Source: a virus
Length of the DNA: 22,516 nt
Virus record (IMG/VR): IMGVR_UViG_3300024346_004204
Coordinates: 1-22,516 of that record
Reading direction: 5' to 3' (one strand)
The position numbers were made by a program, and so were the translations under genes. Position 1 is the first letter of the stretch, and each line of letters begins with the position of its first letter. Shown here piece by piece: positions 5,221 to 22,516 of this stretch. The notes under the pieces were generated by a model. The model saw nothing but the letters and a program-made list of their open reading frames with translations, had not been told where the DNA came from and did no database searches.

Positions 5221-5249
5221 TTGACAAACAAGTACTTATGTACTATAAT
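5221..5249 (+). promoter_or_regulatory. Consensus sigma70-type promoter for the clamp operon
   Basis: TTGACA (5221-5226), a 17-bp spacer and TATAAT (5244-5249), preceded by C, placed 28 bp before the clamp start. The spacer holds AGTAC-TTAT-GTACT (5231-5244), a perfect 5-bp inverted repeat touching the -10 box, which could be an operator. This is probably a strong early promoter read by the host RNA polymerase. Confidence 0.9.
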
Positions 5250-6008: not shown

Positions 6009-7538
6009 ATGCGTAAAGACTTAACCGCAGAACAACATGACTATGCACGTTTTTTGCCTGCACTGAGTGGCTTTTATGCTACTTATGTGGGCAAACAACG
6101 TTATGACGAGTATGTAGATAAGTCACGTATTCCTAGTAACTTTACTCACGGTGTCGAAAGTCTAAACTACCTAAATGATCAAGAAGGACAGTTCCAATAT
6201 AAATGGACACTGTATTCAGCAGGTCATGCTGAGCTTGACATCAACAAACATAGTCCTAAAGAAGATATGATCCGTAATAGAGATAGAGAAAACTCTTGGA
6301 TGCTTGGAGACTCAGGTGGTTTCCAGATCGGTAAAGGCGTGTGGGAAGGTGATTGGAAAGATCCTAACTGTCCTAAGGCACAGAAAAAACGTGATGGTGT
6401 ATTGCGTTGGATGGACGCTTATATGGACTATGGCATGATACTTGATATTCCAGCGTGGGTAGCACGTTCGCCCGAAGGCGCAAAAGCAACAGGCATTAGT
6501 ACATACGACGAAGCTGTAAAAGCAACACGTATAAACAATGACTATTGGATGAAACATAGAACAGGTGCTTGTAAATTCTTAAATGTATTACAAGGTGAGA
6601 ATCATACAGATGCCGATGACTGGTATGAGCAAATGAAAGACTATTGCGATCCAGTTAAGTATCCTGACAATCACTTTAATGGTTGGTCTATGGGTGGTCA
6701 GAATATGTGTGACGTACACTTAGTTCTTAAACGCATTGTTACATTACATTTTGATAACTTGTTACAAACAGGTGTACACGATGTAATGCACTTCTTAGGT
6801 ACATCTAAACTAGAGTGGGCGACATTGCTCACTGATATTCAACGTGCAGTAAGAAAGAATTACAATGAGAACTTTACTATTACCTTTGACTGTGCTAGTC
6901 CTTTCCTCGCAACCGCGAATGGACAAATCTACATTCAAAACGAGACTGAAGACCGAAGCAAATGGACGTATCGTATGGTGCCGTCAGTTGACGATAAAAA
7001 ATATGCTACAGACAACCGTGGATTTAGAGACACTGTTATATCAGATGGGATATTTAAAAACTTTGAAGACTCGCCACTTACAGCCGAACTTAAAGTATCA
7101 GACGTTTGCACTTATGCTCCAGGAGATCTAAATAAGATAGGTAAAGAAGGAAAGACATCATGGGATTCATTTAGTTATGCTATACAAATGGGTCACAACG
7201 TATGGAGTCATATTAATGCCGTACAAGAAGCAAACAGGCAATATGATGCAGGCATTGTTCCTAAGATGCTTGTACAAGAAACATTTGACAGAGTATTCTT
7301 TAGAGATGTAGTAGAAGAAATATTTGCTATTGACAATCGAGAAGAAGCCCTAGCAAAGATTGATGAGTATTCGAAGTTCTGGATGGCTATTCCAGGTACT
7401 AGAGGTGCTATTGGCAAAAAAACTGTAAATGCCAGTACACACTTTAACGCATTATTTGATGTAGAAGAAACTGATGTAGTTGAAGAAGACGAATTAGATG
7501 AAACTAAATTGGAGAATCTCGAGGATGAGCAATTATGA
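6009..7538 (+). CDS. dpdA: DpdA-like 7-deazaguanine DNA transglycosylase (TGT superfamily)
   Basis: This enzyme should exchange guanine in phage DNA for a 7-deazaguanine base. DpdA is the DNA-directed relative of tRNA-guanine transglycosylase (TGT). Visible signatures are LGDSGGFQIGKG (D101, matching the TGT catalytic aspartate of DSGGFQ), NGWSMGG (~G225, matching the base-binding GGLAVGE loop) and TFDCASPF then ANGQIYI (D294), matching the TGT nucleophile region DMFDCVLPTR and GRNGQ. The TGT zinc motif CxCxxC is not present; only scattered Cys and His residues follow (VCTYAP, then MGHNVWSHI). At 509 aa it is longer than TGT (~375), with an acidic C-terminal tail. folE, queE and a QueD-like gene nearby support the DNA-modification role. 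The Shine-Dalgarno sequence is weak and the start lies three bases after the clamp stop. Confidence 0.85.
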   Translation: MRKDLTAEQHDYARFLPALSGFYATYVGKQRYDEYVDKSRIPSNFTHGVESLNYLNDQEGQFQYKWTLYSAGHAELDINKHSPKEDMIRNRDRENSWMLGDSGGFQIGKGVWEGDWKDPNCPKAQKKRDGVLRWMDAYMDYGMILDIPAWVARSPEGAKATGISTYDEAVKATRINNDYWMKHRTGACKFLNVLQGENHTDADDWYEQMKDYCDPVKYPDNHFNGWSMGGQNMCDVHLVLKRIVTLHFDNLLQTGVHDVMHFLGTSKLEWATLLTDIQRAVRKNYNENFTITFDCASPFLATANGQIYIQNETEDRSKWTYRMVPSVDDKKYATDNRGFRDTVISDGIFKNFEDSPLTAELKVSDVCTYAPGDLNKIGKEGKTSWDSFSYAIQMGHNVWSHINAVQEANRQYDAGIVPKMLVQETFDRVFFRDVVEEIFAIDNREEALAKIDEYSKFWMAIPGTRGAIGKKTVNASTHFNALFDVEETDVVEEDELDETKLENLEDEQL

Positions 7539-12068: not shown

Positions 12069-12758
12069 ATGGATAAATCCAAAGAGATAAAAGCCCGTTT
12101 GCAACAAGCAGACAAACGCTTCTGGGCCGGCGACAACATTTCAGACTTTATTAAGGACGGCGAAAAGCAAATACTAATTGATGAGCTTGCTGTTAAGTTT
12201 GAAGACGTATTACAAGGTCTTGTAATAGATACAGAAAACGATCCTAACAGTAACGGCACAGGCAAACGTCTTGCAAAGATGTATATCAATGAGCTAATGG
12301 CTGGACGTTATGAACCAATGCCACCTGCAACAGCATTTCCAAATGATAGCGATGATCGTTATGAAGGTATGCTAGTTGTACGTAGTGAACTTACAAGTAT
12401 GTGTTCACATCATCACCAGATAGTTAAAGGTGTAGCGTACATTGGTATTATTGCATCAGACAAACTAATTGGTTTAAGTAAGTATACACGTATTGCACAA
12501 TGGTGTGCTATGCGAGGTACACTACAAGAAGAACTTGCAAACGACATTGTACGTGAGATTCAGAAGGCAACTGGTGCAGAACACTTAGGTGTTTATGTAC
12601 AAGCAACACACGGTTGTGTCGAAAACAGAGGTGTAAAAGCACACAGTAGCCTTACACAAACAACTGTATTGAAAGGCGCATTTAAAGATGACGCAGGTAC
12701 AAAAAAAGAGTTTATGGACAATATTAAACTGCAACAAGAATTTGCTTGTGGGAAATAG
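12069..12758 (+). CDS. folE: GTP cyclohydrolase I
   Basis: FolE turns GTP into dihydroneopterin triphosphate, the first step of both folate and 7-deazaguanine (queuosine/preQ0) synthesis. The 229-aa protein has zinc ligands C112 and H115 in SMCSHHHQIVKGVAYIGI and C183 in THGCVENRGV, matching C110, H113 and C181 of the E. coli enzyme. The core GLSKYTRIAQWCAMRGTLQEELANDIV matches the family GLSK-R-A-R-QvQE pattern. The start has a CGGAG ribosome site and its own consensus promoter. The stop is followed after three bases by queE, so the two are one operon. In this phage it most likely feeds DNA modification through DpdA. Confidence 0.95.
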   Translation: MDKSKEIKARLQQADKRFWAGDNISDFIKDGEKQILIDELAVKFEDVLQGLVIDTENDPNSNGTGKRLAKMYINELMAGRYEPMPPATAFPNDSDDRYEGMLVVRSELTSMCSHHHQIVKGVAYIGIIASDKLIGLSKYTRIAQWCAMRGTLQEELANDIVREIQKATGAEHLGVYVQATHGCVENRGVKAHSSLTQTTVLKGAFKDDAGTKKEFMDNIKLQQEFACGK

Positions 12759-12761
12759 AGT

Positions 12762-13655
12762 ATGAAACTTAGATATTCAGAAGCATTTTATAGTGTACAA
12801 GGCGAAGGCAAGTTTGTAGGAGTACCTAGTGTATTCCTACGCACATTCGGTTGTAACTTTCGTTGTATGAATTTTGGTGTTGATACTAAAAAGAATCGTG
12901 TAGAGTTACACGCAGAAGGACAGAGATACAATGCAGAAGTTAAAGATTTAATTGATGCAAAAGTACACGAAACAACTGAAAAATTTGAAGACTTGCCTAT
13001 TATACACACAGGCTGTGATACTTATGCAAGTATCTATCCCGAATTTAAACATTTTAACAAACAAGCAGAGGTTGAAGAAGTAGTTGAACATCTGCTATCA
13101 CTCACTCCTAACGGTAAGTGGGTACAGGATAATGGGCAAGATGTCCATTTAATATTAACGGGTGGCGAACCATTGTTGGCGTGGCAACGATTGTACGTAG
13201 AATTATTTGAACATCCACGTATGAGAGACTTAAAAAATGTTACATTTGAAACAAACACTACACAACCTTTACACAACGAGCTCTACGATTATCTCAACAA
13301 TAGCGACAGACTTACGATCACTTGGAGTTGTTCCCCAAAACTTAGTGTTAGCGGAGAACCTTGGGAGACTGCTATTAAGCCTGACATTGCTCGTGAGTAT
13401 ACTAGGGTTTCTGATAGTGAACTTTATCTCAAGTTTGTTGTCGCTACTCAAGATGACTTTGAAGAAGTTGAAAGAGCTGTGGACGCTTACAGAAGTGCCG
13501 GGGTACAGTGTCCGGTATATCTTATGCCGTTGGGCGGACGCAGTGAAGAATACGCCCTCAACGTTAAAGACGTTGCTGAAGCGTGTATGGAAAAAGGATG
13601 GCGATTCACGCCAAGACTCCACATTTCCTTATTCGGAAATGCCTGGGGTACTTGA
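12762..13655 (+). CDS. queE: 7-carboxy-7-deazaguanine synthase (QueE), radical SAM
   Basis: QueE makes 7-carboxy-7-deazaguanine (CDG) from carboxy-tetrahydropterin by a radical SAM reaction. The 297-aa protein opens with YSEAFYSVQGEGKFVGVPSV, the QueE substrate-binding start (E. coli FQTLQGEGYFTGVP), then FLRTFGCNFRC. LILTGGEPLLAW is the SAM-binding GGE motif. Later, SCSPKLS and the C-terminal RLHISLFGN match the QueE ending. The 4Fe-4S cysteines are displaced: C31 and C35 are present, but the third appears to be C85 in TGCDTYAS (normally WCDT), with a ~49-residue insertion between. The spacing would be CX3CX49C instead of CX3CX2C. It is in one operon with folE. Confidence 0.92.
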   Translation: MKLRYSEAFYSVQGEGKFVGVPSVFLRTFGCNFRCMNFGVDTKKNRVELHAEGQRYNAEVKDLIDAKVHETTEKFEDLPIIHTGCDTYASIYPEFKHFNKQAEVEEVVEHLLSLTPNGKWVQDNGQDVHLILTGGEPLLAWQRLYVELFEHPRMRDLKNVTFETNTTQPLHNELYDYLNNSDRLTITWSCSPKLSVSGEPWETAIKPDIAREYTRVSDSELYLKFVVATQDDFEEVERAVDAYRSAGVQCPVYLMPLGGRSEEYALNVKDVAEACMEKGWRFTPRLHISLFGNAWGT

Positions 13656-14174: not shown

Positions 14175-14203
14175 TTGACAACAGCCAGATCTGGTGTTAT
14201 AAT
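14175..14203 (+). promoter_or_regulatory. Consensus promoter for the RNase H operon, with palindromes
   Basis: TTGACA (14175-14180), a 17-bp spacer and TATAAT (14198-14203), preceded by C. The spacer contains the perfect 10-bp palindrome CCAGATCTGG (14185-14194), and the bases just upstream form AAGTAT-CTTA-ATACTT (14161-14176). Both are candidate operators for a regulator. Confidence 0.9.
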
Positions 14204-15304: not shown

Positions 15305-15783
15305 GTATAAAAACAAAAACTATCCTTAAAGATAAATTTTGGATTTTAGAAGATGACGGTGTACGAATTGGTACAATATCATTAGCAGACGAAAATCGTT
15401 TTATGTTTAGTGGAGTTGAAGGTACAACATATTTTGATAGTAAAAAAGCGTTAAAAAATACGTTTGGTGATAACGTATTAATTAACGATATTACTTTACA
15501 AAATGAAAGGGCTGTTAAGGCTGATAAAGATGTACACGGATTTCCAACAAGCACAGTTCCTTACAATACAATGTTAGATGTAAAACGTAAGTTACCATTA
15601 TTTACAAAAAGTTCTAAAAGTAAAAGTTTATATTGTGCAGGTTATTACATTATTCACTTTGATAAAGGATGGGTTAAAAGTTTCTGTCCTAAACTAATTA
15701 CTGTAGAACGTTATGATACAGAAGGTCCATTTAAAAATGATTTAGAAATGCGTACAGCATTGAGTAAAGCAAATGCAAAATGA
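15301..15783 (+). CDS. Hypothetical conserved-looking protein, 160 aa
   Basis: Function unknown; I recall similar proteins in marine T4-like phages but no assigned role. Its N-terminal half is beta-rich (FWILEDDGVRIGTISL, then RFMFSGVEGTTYFDS). Its C-terminal half has DVHGFPTSTVPYNTMLDVKR and LYCAGYYIIHFDKGW, a motif-like stretch with a Cys. It overlaps the nuclease stop by four bases (ATGA). No membrane span or nucleotide-binding loop is seen. Confidence 0.75.
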   Translation: MSIKTKTILKDKFWILEDDGVRIGTISLADENRFMFSGVEGTTYFDSKKALKNTFGDNVLINDITLQNERAVKADKDVHGFPTSTVPYNTMLDVKRKLPLFTKSSKSKSLYCAGYYIIHFDKGWVKSFCPKLITVERYDTEGPFKNDLEMRTALSKANAK

Positions 15784-16009
15784 ACCTTTAAACACCTCTA
15801 GCATACAGCAATTTATTATGCAAGTTAAAAACGCTGATGCTAGTAATGCTAGAGAAGTAAAACTTACATTGCCGCAAGCTAAGAACTTAGCATACACACT
15901 AGGCATTGTAATGGCACGTCTTGAAGGAGACCTTGAAAGATACGTAAAGGACAACAGTGGTGGCGGCGATATTGAAGTACGTCTCGACGGCGGAAGCAAC
16001 TGGAAGTAA
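15773..16009 (+). CDS. Small hypothetical protein, 78 aa
   Basis: Function unknown. It overlaps the previous gene by 11 bases. A helical centre (LPQAKNLAYTLGIVMARLEGDLERYV, ~residues 33-58) is flanked by a polar start and a glycine-rich acidic end (SGGGDIEVRLDGG). An in-frame ATG at 15818 is an alternative start. It is the last gene before the late-promoter/hairpin site at 16034. Confidence 0.65.
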   Translation: MQNEPLNTSSIQQFIMQVKNADASNAREVKLTLPQAKNLAYTLGIVMARLEGDLERYVKDNSGGGDIEVRLDGGSNWK

Positions 16010-16033
16010 ACTACGTAGATAACTCAAAAAAGA

Positions 16034-16041
16034 GATAAATA
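16034..16041 (+). promoter_or_regulatory. Late promoter motif GATAAATA
   Basis: This matches NATAAATA, the late -10 motif described for T4-like cyanophages, and differs from T4 TATAAATA only at the first base. Transcription would start around 16047, inside the left arm of the hairpin at 16041-16051. No sigma70-type promoter is seen in this gap. Confidence 0.65.
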
Positions 16042-16074
16042 TATGCGTATATAATTTAAGGAGTATACGCATAT
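16041..16074 (+). promoter_or_regulatory. Ribosome-site hairpin, 11-bp perfect stem
   Basis: ATATGCGTATA (16041-16051) pairs fully with TATACGCATAT (16064-16074). The 12-base loop holds AAGGAG (16058-16063), and the right arm contains the first two bases of the start codon. A readthrough transcript would fold and hide the start. A transcript beginning at the late promoter would lack about half the left arm and stay open. T4 gene e uses the same arrangement. Confidence 0.75.
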
Positions 16075-16363
16075 GAGCAGGCCTAAACCCACTGTATTAC
16101 TAGAATACATAGATAAAAAAACTTATAGAGCAGAACAAGTATTAGATGCTACTGCTATTTGGGCTGTATTTTATAATGGCAAACCATTTAATTTAAAAAG
16201 CAGTAACTCTATTACAAATTATCCTGGACCAAAATATAAGAAAGTTTCTTTTTCAAATCCTGGTCACGCACACAATCTAGCAAAAAAATTAAACGAAATG
16301 TTCAATACTGATGAGTTTAAAGTATATATGATGTCTAGTGGTGAAGTAGTAACTGAAGAATGA
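16073..16363 (+). CDS. Hypothetical protein under predicted late translational control, 96 aa
   Basis: Function unknown. Residues ~1-60 are beta-like (TVLLEYIDKKTYRAEQV, then AIWAVFYNGKPFNL), followed by KYKKVSFSNPGHAHNLAKKLNEMF and an acidic end. Its start codon is built into the 3' arm of an 11-bp hairpin, and a late-promoter motif lies directly upstream, so the protein is probably needed late in infection, e.g. for assembly or lysis. It overlaps the next start by four bases (ATGA). Confidence 0.75.
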   Translation: MSRPKPTVLLEYIDKKTYRAEQVLDATAIWAVFYNGKPFNLKSSNSITNYPGPKYKKVSFSNPGHAHNLAKKLNEMFNTDEFKVYMMSSGEVVTEE

Positions 16364-16734
16364 ACTGGAAAGAAACATATACAAAAATCTTTCTTAATCA
16401 ATTAGGTAAAACTTCAAATGATATTACAGTAAAAGAATATTTGCCCTTGTGGTGGAAGAACACTAGAGACAAGGGAGGACTTAGATTAACCGATACTGGA
16501 TTTGACATCTTAACCGAAATTGAGTTAGCTTCGTACGAAGTACCGTATCCTAAAGATATGCCAATAACTACTCAAGTTATTATCTTTTTAGACAAATTTA
16601 TCGACTGTCCTTACTACATTACCAACAGAGCAATACACGTAACAAGCGAAAAGAAAGCAATGGAATTACACTTGTTTAGCGGAGATTTGCGCAAATATGG
16701 ACTAGCAAAAGCATTAAAAAGACAAAATAATTAA
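16360..16734 (+). CDS. Hypothetical protein, 124 aa
   Basis: Function unknown. It is a compact mixed sequence: YLPLWWKNTRDKGGLRLTD (~residues 28-46), which looks like a conserved core, then TQVIIFLDKFIDCPYYIT and a C-terminal helix MELHLFSGDLRKYGLAKALK. It is likely translated with the gene before it through ATGA overlap, so it may share the late control. A new promoter starts nine bases after its stop. Confidence 0.75.
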   Translation: MNWKETYTKIFLNQLGKTSNDITVKEYLPLWWKNTRDKGGLRLTDTGFDILTEIELASYEVPYPKDMPITTQVIIFLDKFIDCPYYITNRAIHVTSEKKAMELHLFSGDLRKYGLAKALKRQNN

Positions 16735-16771: not shown

Positions 16772-16825
16772 ATATACATAGTAAGAAATTACTTAGCACT
16801 GATTATGACAATTGAGGAATACGAA

Positions 16826-18023: not shown

Positions 18024-19370
18024 ATGTTAGACTTTACACCAGAATATGTTGCAATGGCAGCTAAAGATACTGCAAGTAAACTAAAAAATTGGCAACCTGA
18101 TCCTAATATCACTCCCGAACAACTAGAAGAAATGCGTGTAGAAGTATATGACCGTATTATTGTTGCTCGAGTAGGTTTGCTGTTGCGTCACCCATTTTTT
18201 GGCAATATGGCTACACGTTTACGTATTTTAGCCGCAGATGATTGGTTACCTACTGCCGCTGTAGACGGGCGCAACCTTTATTACAATACTCAATTCTTTA
18301 ACGCAATGACTAACAAAGAAATTGAGTTCGTTGTTGCACACGAAATTTTGCACTGTGTATTTGATCACTTAGAACGTAGAGAAGATCGTAATCCTATGAT
18401 CTATAATATTGCGGCAGATTACAAAGTAAACAATTTGCTTGTAAGAGATCGTATTGGTGTTACTCCAAGTATTGTCGACTGTTACCAAGACTTTAAATAC
18501 GAAGAATGGACTTCGGAAGAAATTTATGACGAACTGTTCGAACAAGCAAAACAAAATGGTGAAGAATTTCTACAACAACTAGGCGAAATGTTAGATGAAC
18601 ATTTGGACGGACAAGGTGATGAAGACGGAACCGGTGACGCCGGTGAAGGCAAAGATGCAAACGGAAATGGCGTTAGTAAAAAGAAACCTACGTATTCTAA
18701 AGAACAAATAAAACAAATTAAGGACGAAATCAAAGAAGGTATGATGCAGGCAGCACAGGCAGCTGGTGCAGGTAATACTCCGGGTGAAATACAACGTATG
18801 ATTAAAGAGCTCACAGAGCCTAAAATGAACTGGCGTGAGATCTTACAACAACAAATACAATCTACCATACGTAATGATTTTACATTTCAACGTCCTAACC
18901 GCAAAAGTTGGCATACTGGTGCTATACTTCCAGGTATGGACTTTGACGAAACTATTGACATATGTGTTGCTGTTGATATGTCAGGTTCAATTGGTAATGT
19001 ACAAGCACAAGACTTTTTAAGTGAAATACAAGGTATTATGGATCAATACAAAGACTATAATATTAAAGTATGGTGTTTTGACACTAAAGTTTATAACGAA
19101 CAAGACTTTAGTGCAAACGGTGGTGAAGATCTTAGAGATTATGAAGTAGTTGGTGGTGGTGGAACTGATTTTGATGCCAACTGGATTTATATGAAAGACC
19201 AAGATATACAACCTAAGAAATTTATTATGTTTACAGACGGATATCCTTGGGATAGTTGGGGTGATGAATCATACTGTGATACTGTATTTTTAATTCATTC
19301 ACACCACGATAAAAATACACAAGCACCGTTTGGAACTACTGTACATTACGAGGATGCAATTGGCGCTTAA
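18024..19370 (+). CDS. VWA-like protein with a metallopeptidase domain (DUF2201-like)
   Basis: This 448-aa protein has two domains. The N-terminal one has VVAHEILHCVFDHLERRED, with the zinc HExxH at H106-H110, followed by NIAADYKVNN, the combination seen in the DUF2201 putative metallopeptidase family. A flexible linker (~residues 175-230, DEDGTGDAGEGKDANGNG) leads to a C-terminal VWA-like fold. That fold has a complete MIDAS set: AVDMSGSIG (D318, S320, S322), GGGTDF (T381) and FTDGYP (D405). Such proteins pair with MoxR ATPases. The upstream ATPase gene and the matching promoter support a two-component unit. The substrate is unknown; virion maturation, host protein remodelling or defence are all possible. 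Confidence 0.9.
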   Translation: MLDFTPEYVAMAAKDTASKLKNWQPDPNITPEQLEEMRVEVYDRIIVARVGLLLRHPFFGNMATRLRILAADDWLPTAAVDGRNLYYNTQFFNAMTNKEIEFVVAHEILHCVFDHLERREDRNPMIYNIAADYKVNNLLVRDRIGVTPSIVDCYQDFKYEEWTSEEIYDELFEQAKQNGEEFLQQLGEMLDEHLDGQGDEDGTGDAGEGKDANGNGVSKKKPTYSKEQIKQIKDEIKEGMMQAAQAAGAGNTPGEIQRMIKELTEPKMNWREILQQQIQSTIRNDFTFQRPNRKSWHTGAILPGMDFDETIDICVAVDMSGSIGNVQAQDFLSEIQGIMDQYKDYNIKVWCFDTKVYNEQDFSANGGEDLRDYEVVGGGGTDFDANWIYMKDQDIQPKKFIMFTDGYPWDSWGDESYCDTVFLIHSHHDKNTQAPFGTTVHYEDAIGA

Positions 19371-20865: not shown

Positions 20866-20873
20866 GATAAATA
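20866..20873 (+). promoter_or_regulatory. Late promoter motif GATAAATA (fibre gene)
   Basis: This matches NATAAATA and lies 38 bases before the ATG of a long structural-looking gene, as expected for late expression. A second copy of the motif lies at 20883. Confidence 0.65.
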
Positions 20874-20882
20874 CTAATAACA

Positions 20883-20890
20883 AATAAATA
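20883..20890 (+). promoter_or_regulatory. Second late promoter motif AATAAATA
   Basis: This second NATAAATA match lies 17 bases after the first. One of the two is probably the main late start for the fibre gene; the other may be incidental, since the region is very AT-rich. Confidence 0.45.
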
Positions 20891-20911
20891 TGTTATCAGG
20901 AGTTAACTAGA

Positions 20912-22516
20912 ATGGCATTACAAATCAGACGTGGTACAGATGCTGAACGTACAGCAGGTGGCGGTGTAATATTCGCAGAAGGCGAGTTAGTGTATGTAAC
21001 AGATACCGATGCACTGTATGTAGGTGACGGCGCAACAGCAGGTGGCGTGAAACTAACAGACAATGCAGGAGCAGTGCTTGGTAGTTATATCACTGCAGAC
21101 ACAATAAATTCAACATTAGATTTACAACAAAATTTAGACCTTAACGGCAAAGACATAATTGGTACAGGTAATATTAATATTGCTGGTACTATTAATGCTA
21201 CTGGCAATGTAAACATTGGTGACGATGCCAATACAGACACTGTTAACTTAGCAGCACAAATAACAAGTTCATTAACTCCGAACGCAGATACTACTTACAA
21301 CATCGGTACACCAACCGCACGTTGGAATAACGGTTACTTTACAGGTTTAGTTGTTGACGGACAAGTAGATGCTGTTGCAGTTAATGCAAACGTAGTTGCT
21401 AATGACTCATCTGTGATGGTAAATGTTAGTAATAATATATTTACAGGAGCATTTTCAGGTAACGTAACAGGTAATGTTTTAGGTGATCTAACTGGCGATA
21501 GTGCAGGTACACATACAGGTAATGTTATAGGTAATGTTACAGGTAGCTTAGATGGTGATGTTACAGGTTCAATATTTGGCGACGATTCGACATTAATTGT
21601 TGATGCTATAAACAAAACACTGACCGGAAACTTAACTGGTAATACAGCAGGAGTACACACTGGTGATGTAACTGGTAACGTAACTGGGCAAATTAAAGGT
21701 TCAGGTAGCGGCACAGTACTAGCACCAAACACAGGTCCAGCAGATGCAGAACTTAGTGTACTTAATGTAACAGCAACCGGTACAATTACAGGTGCTGTTA
21801 CAGGTAATGTTACAGGTAATACAGCAGGTTATCATACAGGTGATGTTAAGGGTTCAGTATTTGGCGACGATTCAGCAGTATTAGTAGACGCAGTTGCAGG
21901 ATCTATTCCAGGAGAAAATATTACTGGAACTGTTACTGCTGCATTTACAGGCAACTTAACCGGTAATGCTGCAGGTGATCATACAGGTACATTTACAGGT
22001 AATATATTTACTAGCTTAATTGATAGCGGCGATTCAAGTGCTATTATAGTTACCCCAAGAATGGACTTTAGTTCCGATGTTATTATAAACAATACATTGT
22101 TTATCAACCCAACTGGTAACCCAGGTGGTGATATTGCTAAAATAGATAATACAGGAACTATAAGTGGTATTCGATTAGAAACACAACGTATTACTCACAC
22201 CGACGGCGGCGAATTAGTTTTTGGTAATCGAGTAGGTTTTGAAGAAACTACAACGTTTCTAAAGCAAGCAACATTTGCAGAAAAACTAAGTGTCCAAACT
22301 ATTGCAGGCCAATTTAGTGGTTCACTTGCTATAGAAACATTTACTGGTGACCCTGATGATGATGCTTCTGTTGCAAATGCTGCAAATTATGACAAGCACT
22401 TTGAAGCAACTACAACAAAAGCAACATTTGGTGTGCCGGCACAATTTGCTAATATGACAACTAGTGTTCGAAATGCACTAACACCGGCAGCTGGTATGGT
22501 TGTGTTTAATACTACA
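20912..22516 (+). CDS. Repetitive tail-fibre/structural protein, N-terminal 535 aa (runs off window)
   Basis: The frame is open from ATG 20912 to the window end with no stop (535 codons). AGGAG precedes the start (CAGGAGTTAACTAGA before ATG). Residues 1-50 (LQIRRGTDAERTAGG, then GELVYVTDTDALYVGDG) resemble the N-terminal domain of major tropism determinant-type and other phage receptor-binding proteins. SLTPNADTTYNIGTPTARWN (residues ~113-132) is a strand motif common in marine phage fibres. From ~175 to ~370 the chain is made of short Gly/Thr/Asn units such as TGNVTGN and AG-HTGD, as in beta-helical or collagen-like fibre shafts. Module GSIFGDDSTLIVDA (~219) recurs as GSVFGDDSAVLVDA (~314). 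The end of the window is non-repetitive. It is probably a tail fibre or adhesin; a neck or baseplate fibre is possible. Confidence 0.85.
   Translation, partial: MALQIRRGTDAERTAGGGVIFAEGELVYVTDTDALYVGDGATAGGVKLTDNAGAVLGSYITADTINSTLDLQQNLDLNGKDIIGTGNINIAGTINATGNVNIGDDANTDTVNLAAQITSSLTPNADTTYNIGTPTARWNNGYFTGLVVDGQVDAVAVNANVVANDSSVMVNVSNNIFTGAFSGNVTGNVLGDLTGDSAGTHTGNVIGNVTGSLDGDVTGSIFGDDSTLIVDAINKTLTGNLTGNTAGVHTGDVTGNVTGQIKGSGSGTVLAPNTGPADAELSVLNVTATGTITGAVTGNVTGNTAGYHTGDVKGSVFGDDSAVLVDAVAGSIPGENITGTVTAAFTGNLTGNAAGDHTGTFTGNIFTSLIDSGDSSAIIVTPRMDFSSDVIINNTLFINPTGNPGGDIAKIDNTGTISGIRLETQRITHTDGGELVFGNRVGFEETTTFLKQATFAEKLSVQTIAGQFSGSLAIETFTGDPDDDASVANAANYDKHFEATTTKATFGVPAQFANMTTSVRNALTPAAGMVVFNTT

Follow-up and report, generated by a model that had tools for sequence, protein, structure and literature searches.

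Leader hairpins of the T4 type, closed in early RNA and open in late RNA, are known at a small number of genes in phages closely related to T4. The logic of such leaders in T4 itself has been published (PMC3014915; PMC2988022). At the homing-endonuclease genes I-TevI, I-TevII and segB of T4 and mobE of phage Aeh1, a late box lies directly ahead of a hairpin at the ribosome site, and the hairpin forms only on RNA that has been started upstream (PMC2988022); long RNA of genes 49, soc and 26 of T4 carries a closed structure where translation begins (PMC3014915; PMC2988022). The T4 late box spans positions -13 to -6 (PMC1524935), and NATAAATA is found in the cyanophage S-PM2 (PMC2984593).

The stretch of DNA considered here, referred to below as the window, is 22,516 bases long and makes up an entire IMG/VR record; it covers part of a phage genome. 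The phage has a T4-type DNA polymerase and, judged by that protein, its nearest isolates are the jumbo phages Phosso and Atu_ph07. Ahead of a conserved gene for a 96-aa protein, the window carries what is very probably a switch for late timing, of the kind known from gene e of T4 but in another clade of phages. The proposed sequence of events is the following: early RNA from σ70 promoters (the nearest at 14175) would read into the gene with both arms of a hairpin present, and the hairpin would close on the Shine-Dalgarno sequence and start codon, blocking translation; after the onset of replication, RNA polymerase with a gp55-type σ would use GATAAATA at 16034, and the resulting RNA, started at about 16047 and missing the left arm's 5' half, would form no stable stem and would be translated. 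We infer the exact 5' end, the read-through RNA and the change in translation.

Anatomy of the leader

The coordinates of the leader, its gene and their surroundings are collected in Table 1.

Table 1. The leader of the 16073 gene and neighbouring features of the window
Feature	Position	Strand	Basis or remark
σ70 promoter TTGACA-17-TATAAT (12/12), candidate source of read-through	14175-14203	+	1.9 kb upstream of 16073
Upstream ORF, 78 aa, codirectional	15773-16009	+	stops 63 nt short of the ATG at 16073
T4-type late promoter box GATAAATA (NATAAATA type)	16034-16041	+	sequence; same box in 89/94 marine-type relatives
Hairpin left arm ATATGCGTATA	16041-16051	+	inverted repeat, folding; fixed distance from box in 94/94 marine-type relatives
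Predicted late transcription start (last A of box + 6)	16047	+	by the T4 -13/-6 convention
Hairpin loop TAATTTAAGGAG, 12 nt	16052-16063	+	
Shine-Dalgarno AAGGAG, inside hairpin loop	16058-16063	+	Shine-Dalgarno in loop in 89/94 marine-type relatives
Hairpin right arm TATACGCATAT	16064-16074	+	inverted repeat, folding, covariation with left arm
Start codon ATG of the controlled gene	16073-16075	+	A and T inside right arm
Controlled gene, 96 aa, MSRPKP..., conserved, function unknown	16073-16363	+	homolog searches, alignments
Next gene, start overlaps stop of the 16073 gene (ATGA)	16360-16734	+	phrog_15638, unknown function

The original prediction had described a perfect 11-bp stem with AAGGAG in its loop and the first two bases of the start codon in its right arm, and had let the left arm begin where the late motif ends; on all of these points the coordinates are exact, the box and the left arm having the single base 16041 in common. 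Taken by itself, with conservation data set aside, the stem is unremarkable, and single-sequence folding is weak evidence. Other inverted repeats of similar length are present in the window. In the predicted fold of a 101-nt RNA the stem does form, extended to 13 pairs, but its z against shuffles is only -1.9, a score that was left out as proof. Three things raise the stem above chance: conservation with covariation, the constant spacing of motif and arm, and the top rank in opening cost, the ribosome site of the 16073 gene being the costliest to open among the 24 genes of the window (9.6 kcal/mol).

When one mismatch is allowed, the window shows no excess of GATAAATA, and only exact NATAAATA was therefore counted. 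It occurs at four sites, all on the plus strand and none on the minus strand, and three of these sites are followed by a gene start at a distance of 22-39 nt; in five marine genomes, ATAAATA within 60 nt upstream of genes is met 46 times in the sense and 6 times in the antisense orientation. Since the T4 box occupies -13 to -6, the start is predicted six nucleotides past the last A, inside the left arm, and the 5' end of late RNA would accordingly lie near 16047.

(Two technical notes on boxes. The long, repeat-rich, adhesin-like gene at 20912 has two late boxes upstream, GATAAATA at 20866 and AATAAATA at 20883; in its leader (20866-20902 of the window) a 6-bp helix, ATAACA/TGTTAT at 20877-20882/20891-20896, encloses the second box and directly adjoins the Shine-Dalgarno sequence CAGGAG. 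Several relatives have a motif like CTACGTAGATAAC some 12-25 nt ahead of GATAAATA (16010-16022 in the window); it resembles the left arm together with the bases that follow it, ATGCGTAGTTAAT.)

Conservation and covariation in marine-type relatives

At least 590 relatives of the 16073 gene are present among the viral-contig matches listed. Nearly all of the first 80 loci (59 distinct here) have GATAAATA joined directly to TATRYGTA, a loop that contains a Shine-Dalgarno sequence, and, ending close to the ATG, a right arm that matches the left; L035 and L065 depart from this layout, and L035 is without the usual hairpin. With further loci added, the layout is common to 94 distinct sequences: the box is GATAAATA in 89 of them, and the join of box and arm is invariant in all 94. 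Loss of pairing without compensation had been named in advance as the observation that would tell against a switch; what the relatives present instead is pairing kept with compensation.

The covariation rests mainly on one base pair. With the right arm placed by best pairing, this variable pair is G-C in 59 of the 94 distinct sequences, A-U in 27, G-U in 5, A-C in one, and something else in two. An unfitted test, in which the base at -3 of the ATG is simply set against the left-arm base, yields a Fisher p of 9e-8 with relatedness ignored (all statistics taken over sets of homologs in this analysis are phylogenetically non-independent). On a tree of coding sequences, the left base has changed at least 17 times and the right base at least 20 times; depending on the random pairings, 5-7 supported independent contrasts go in the same direction and none in the opposite one (sign test p 0.016-0.06).

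Is the pairing maintained in RNA or in DNA? The pairs of 87 stems comprise 585 Watson-Crick, 15 G-U and 2 A-C, and the loop varies from 6 to 19 nt; the excess of G-U over A-C, together with this variation of the loop, points to selection on RNA rather than on a DNA dyad. One can nevertheless imagine a dimeric regulator that binds two half-sites and controls the late promoter, with the RNA hairpin incidental: both half-sites do lie at the late promoter and change together, and the I-TevI protein of T4 acts at an operator, too, to repress its late promoter (PMC2988022). An operator with constant half-site spacing and a symmetric base requirement was rejected on the pair counts and arm distances just given, and distant homologs (below) build their helix from other sequences at other positions; a DNA operator is accordingly held to be very improbable.

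The left arm might also be nothing but an extended promoter or initial transcribed sequence, its pairing a by-product of an AT-rich start region. Six of 81 GATAAATATATRCGTA sites do indeed have no member of this gene family behind them; some precede another gene and lack a right arm that would match. The other 75 or so precede a 16073-type gene, and the right arm, which is outside any promoter, tracks the left-arm base. Plain promoter extension was rejected on the placement of the GATAAATATATRCGTA sites, the stem pair counts and the right-arm association, and is hardly credible.

Predicted opening on late initiation

An RNA switch of the T4 type implies a ribosome site that is costly to open in read-through RNA and cheap to open in late-started RNA. 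The site was scored from -14 to +2 in both. For the 16073 gene, the read-through cost already given rises to 10.4-12.2 kcal/mol with a leader of 100-400 nt; starting at 16047 lowers it to 3.3 kcal/mol, a weak 6-bp remnant of the stem surviving in the window phage. The 5'-truncated RNA does, then, open in silico under the T4 start convention, as had been anticipated. From 16048 onward, starts leave the site open (0.9 kcal/mol at 16048); starts up to 16045 leave it closed (9 kcal/mol or more). Marine-type relatives behave in the same way: in 98 of them the median opening cost goes from 9.8 to 3.3 kcal/mol, and the drop falls between last A + 4 and last A + 5. In silico, the switch requires a start no earlier than last A + 5, and the expected start at + 6 is therefore just on the open side; by this modelling, late RNA started at last A + 4 or earlier would stay closed.

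That dependence on the exact start gives a foothold to the proposal that the hairpin is present in all RNAs, late RNA included, and serves as a translational operator or thermosensor, transcription starting upstream of the full left arm. T4 is the model by which the late start was placed, the site stays closed when RNA begins no later than last A + 4, and the stability of the hairpin varies with temperature. What makes the proposal very unlikely is that the left arm keeps its fixed distance from the late box throughout the marine-type relatives, that several distant homologs have their left arm upstream of the late box, where it would be absent from any RNA started at that box, and that no Rfam family matches: covariance models of thermometers, riboswitches and other leaders gave no match at E up to 1 over 15700-16400.

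The predicted opening on late initiation distinguishes this gene from others behind the same box. In 162 distinct homologs the median drop in opening cost is 6.5 kcal/mol, and it is at least 2 kcal/mol in 88%; 38 other NATAAATA genes of five marine genomes have a median drop of 1.4 kcal/mol (p 9e-14, relatedness not corrected), and in four of these five genomes the 16073-type gene has the largest drop of all. In T4, which served as positive control, the same scan places gene e first (17.4 to 1.9 kcal/mol), with I-TevI, I-TevII, 49, 26 and segB among the best; the coordinates were checked against the annotation, and these genes are the ones already published (PMC3014915; PMC2988022). Computing the opening cost in read-through and in late RNA can find such switches in any phage with a gp55-type σ.

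(Another technical note: the scans also drew attention to two further genes. T4 gene 51 at 116479 (L240-L290) is a switch candidate, at 11.1 to 1.3 kcal/mol; it is not known to have been counted among the established cases. The strongest candidate in PA5oct is EST35_0209 at 135020 (L416, PA5oct 134500-137000), a 478-codon ORF between two virion proteins, whose leader has a GTCTCCG/CGGAGAC helix with GATAAATA in the loop.)

Distant homologs and other layouts

The original prediction had taken the gene to be that of a marine-type phage. Many of its relatives are indeed marine, but homologs are also found in isolated jumbo phages and in contigs of up to 578 kb. Beyond the marine phages, some homologs have different helices and some have none; the box is there in nearly all, NATAAATA or a near form of it persisting in distant homologs in which the helix differs. 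In a recurrent alternative, the left arm precedes the late box and the box falls within the loop. The helices are ACCTCTTTT/AAAAGAGGT in L134, CACCAATCTTTAA/TTAAAGATTGGTG in L146, CTCCGTAT/ATACGGAG in L144, CACCTC/GAGGTG in L105 and TCCGACCA/TGGTCGGA in L106; L148 has the same arrangement. Because the arm is upstream of the box, late RNA of these homologs would lack it whatever the exact start beyond the box.

When 54 distinct distant or variant homologs were compared with shuffles that kept the box and the ribosome site, p was at or below 0.05 in 21 (2.7 expected; Fisher combined 6e-14). Base-pair probabilities for the 162 homologs place the arm between box and start in 102 and upstream of the box in 33; 27 have little or no predicted switch (drop below 3 kcal/mol), and these include PA5oct and SCTP-2. 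On a tree of architectures, the layouts with the arm upstream and with the arm at the transcription start interchange at least 10 times, a count that is only supportive because 97 columns give poor resolution. (In the leaders of homologs L093, L109 and L084, the left arm of a hairpin overlaps the end of the late box and the hairpin ends before the Shine-Dalgarno sequence; such a hairpin would either be without effect or act on read-through RNA differently, by blocking or terminating it.)

Promoters and σ factors

Where would the early, read-through RNA originate? Near-perfect σ70 promoters lie at 5221, 7598, 8233, 11444, 11978, 14175, 16743 and 17962 in the window. All eight, of the form TTGACA-17-TATA(A/C)T, are on the plus strand, and 0.005 are expected by shuffling; as a set, they make a clean predicted map of early transcription. 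A scan of the plus strand predicted no terminator-like site between the 14175 promoter and 16073, and RNA reading into the 16073 gene should come from that predicted promoter. G001 and G004 have similar σ70 promoters 1.8 kb upstream of the gene.

A gp55-family late σ was found in 15 of the 20 records searched (T4 is counted among the 15), including the relatives G001, G002, G004, G005 and G007 of the window phage and the jumbo phages PA5oct, Phosso, Atu_ph07 and SCTP-2; none was identified within the 22.5-kb fragment that is the window. (At 664-924, the window encodes an 86-aa protein that matches phrog_639, "transcriptional regulator" (3e-7), and phrog_12534.)

The 96-aa gene and its neighbours

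The 96-aa protein is well conserved, with a mean column identity of 73-74% in alignments of 45 and 41 homologs, and resembles little else. It has no Pfam or PHROG match in the window phage, a PDB sequence search reached a best E of only about 0.5, and its AlphaFold model, of fair quality (pLDDT 88), found no match in a PDB fold search (best E 0.69) and just two uncharacterised proteins in a library of viral structures. For the family, a sub-threshold match to SspH in 5 of 45 homologs and a single PHROG match at 0.007 were judged uninformative.

The ATGA overlap makes it probable that late expression includes the 16360 gene, and the two genes are likely to be co-translated. Downstream, the window, Phosso and PA5oct all have a gene for an AAA ATPase; in Phosso and Atu_ph07 the homolog is directly preceded by a glutaredoxin gene. 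The PA5oct record of the homolog carries no mass-spectrometry note; those of some nearby genes do.

(Elsewhere in the window, the genes at 6009-7538, 12069-12758 and 12762-13655 look by eye like a TGT/DpdA-like enzyme, FolE and QueE, a combination that suggests 7-deazaguanine modification of DNA; PA5oct has an annotated 7-carboxy-7-deazaguanine synthase near the homologous place. The gene at 18024-19370 bears conflicting labels, "HNH endonuclease" by PHROG (phrog_1314) and DUF2201 metallopeptidase with a VWA-like domain by Pfam; taken together with the AAA ATPase at 16805, it suggests a MoxR-VWA pair.)

Why should a phage take such care over a protein of 96 residues? The hairpin has been kept by compensating mutations and apparently rebuilt in distant giant phages, and late-only production of the protein for that reason looks strongly selected; we infer a dedicated late role. 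Strong selection against the early protein would be a direct lead to its function. Generalizing from there is on more tentative ground: it is possible, though doubtful, that throughout a clade reaching from marine phages to contigs of more than 500 kb this one gene stands under a closed-early/open-late switch that has been repeatedly rebuilt, with the arm downstream of, overlapping or upstream of the box, and that its product is a late-stage factor that is harmful if made early. Were that so, the protein might be, for example, an agent that ends early transcription or replication.

Comparison with the T4 leaders

The mechanism is known in kind; what is new is its breadth, its covariation and its rebuilding around one uncharacterised gene. 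The same T4 logic is found on a single conserved gene in many marine and distant jumbo phages, where it has apparently been rebuilt several times.

The resemblance to T4 gene e, on which the original prediction drew, is borne out by the anatomy, by the gp55-type σ of relatives, by the sense enrichment of ATAAATA and by the early-type promoters. In both cases a late box of the NATAAATA type lies at or inside the helix of a gene in an early-read region (predicted to be so in the case of the 16073 gene), the Shine-Dalgarno sequence would be closed in long early RNA, and late RNA would lack the 5' strand. The differences are these: 1) gene e encodes lysozyme, whereas no lysozyme similarity was found for the 96-aa protein, whose gene belongs to a different phage clade; 2) gene e has two late boxes and the 16073 gene one; 3) the Shine-Dalgarno sequence is in the stem in gene e and in the loop here.

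With I-TevI, I-TevII, segB and mobE the 16073 gene has in common the late box ahead of the hairpin, and the scan finds the T4 members of that group as well. All four are mobile elements; the 96-aa gene, in contrast, is conserved and in several phages has similar neighbours (an AAA ATPase nearby). An inhibitory structure at late genes is likewise a feature of 49, soc and 26 of T4, the first and last of which the scan recovers; no homology of sequence or gene to them was found.
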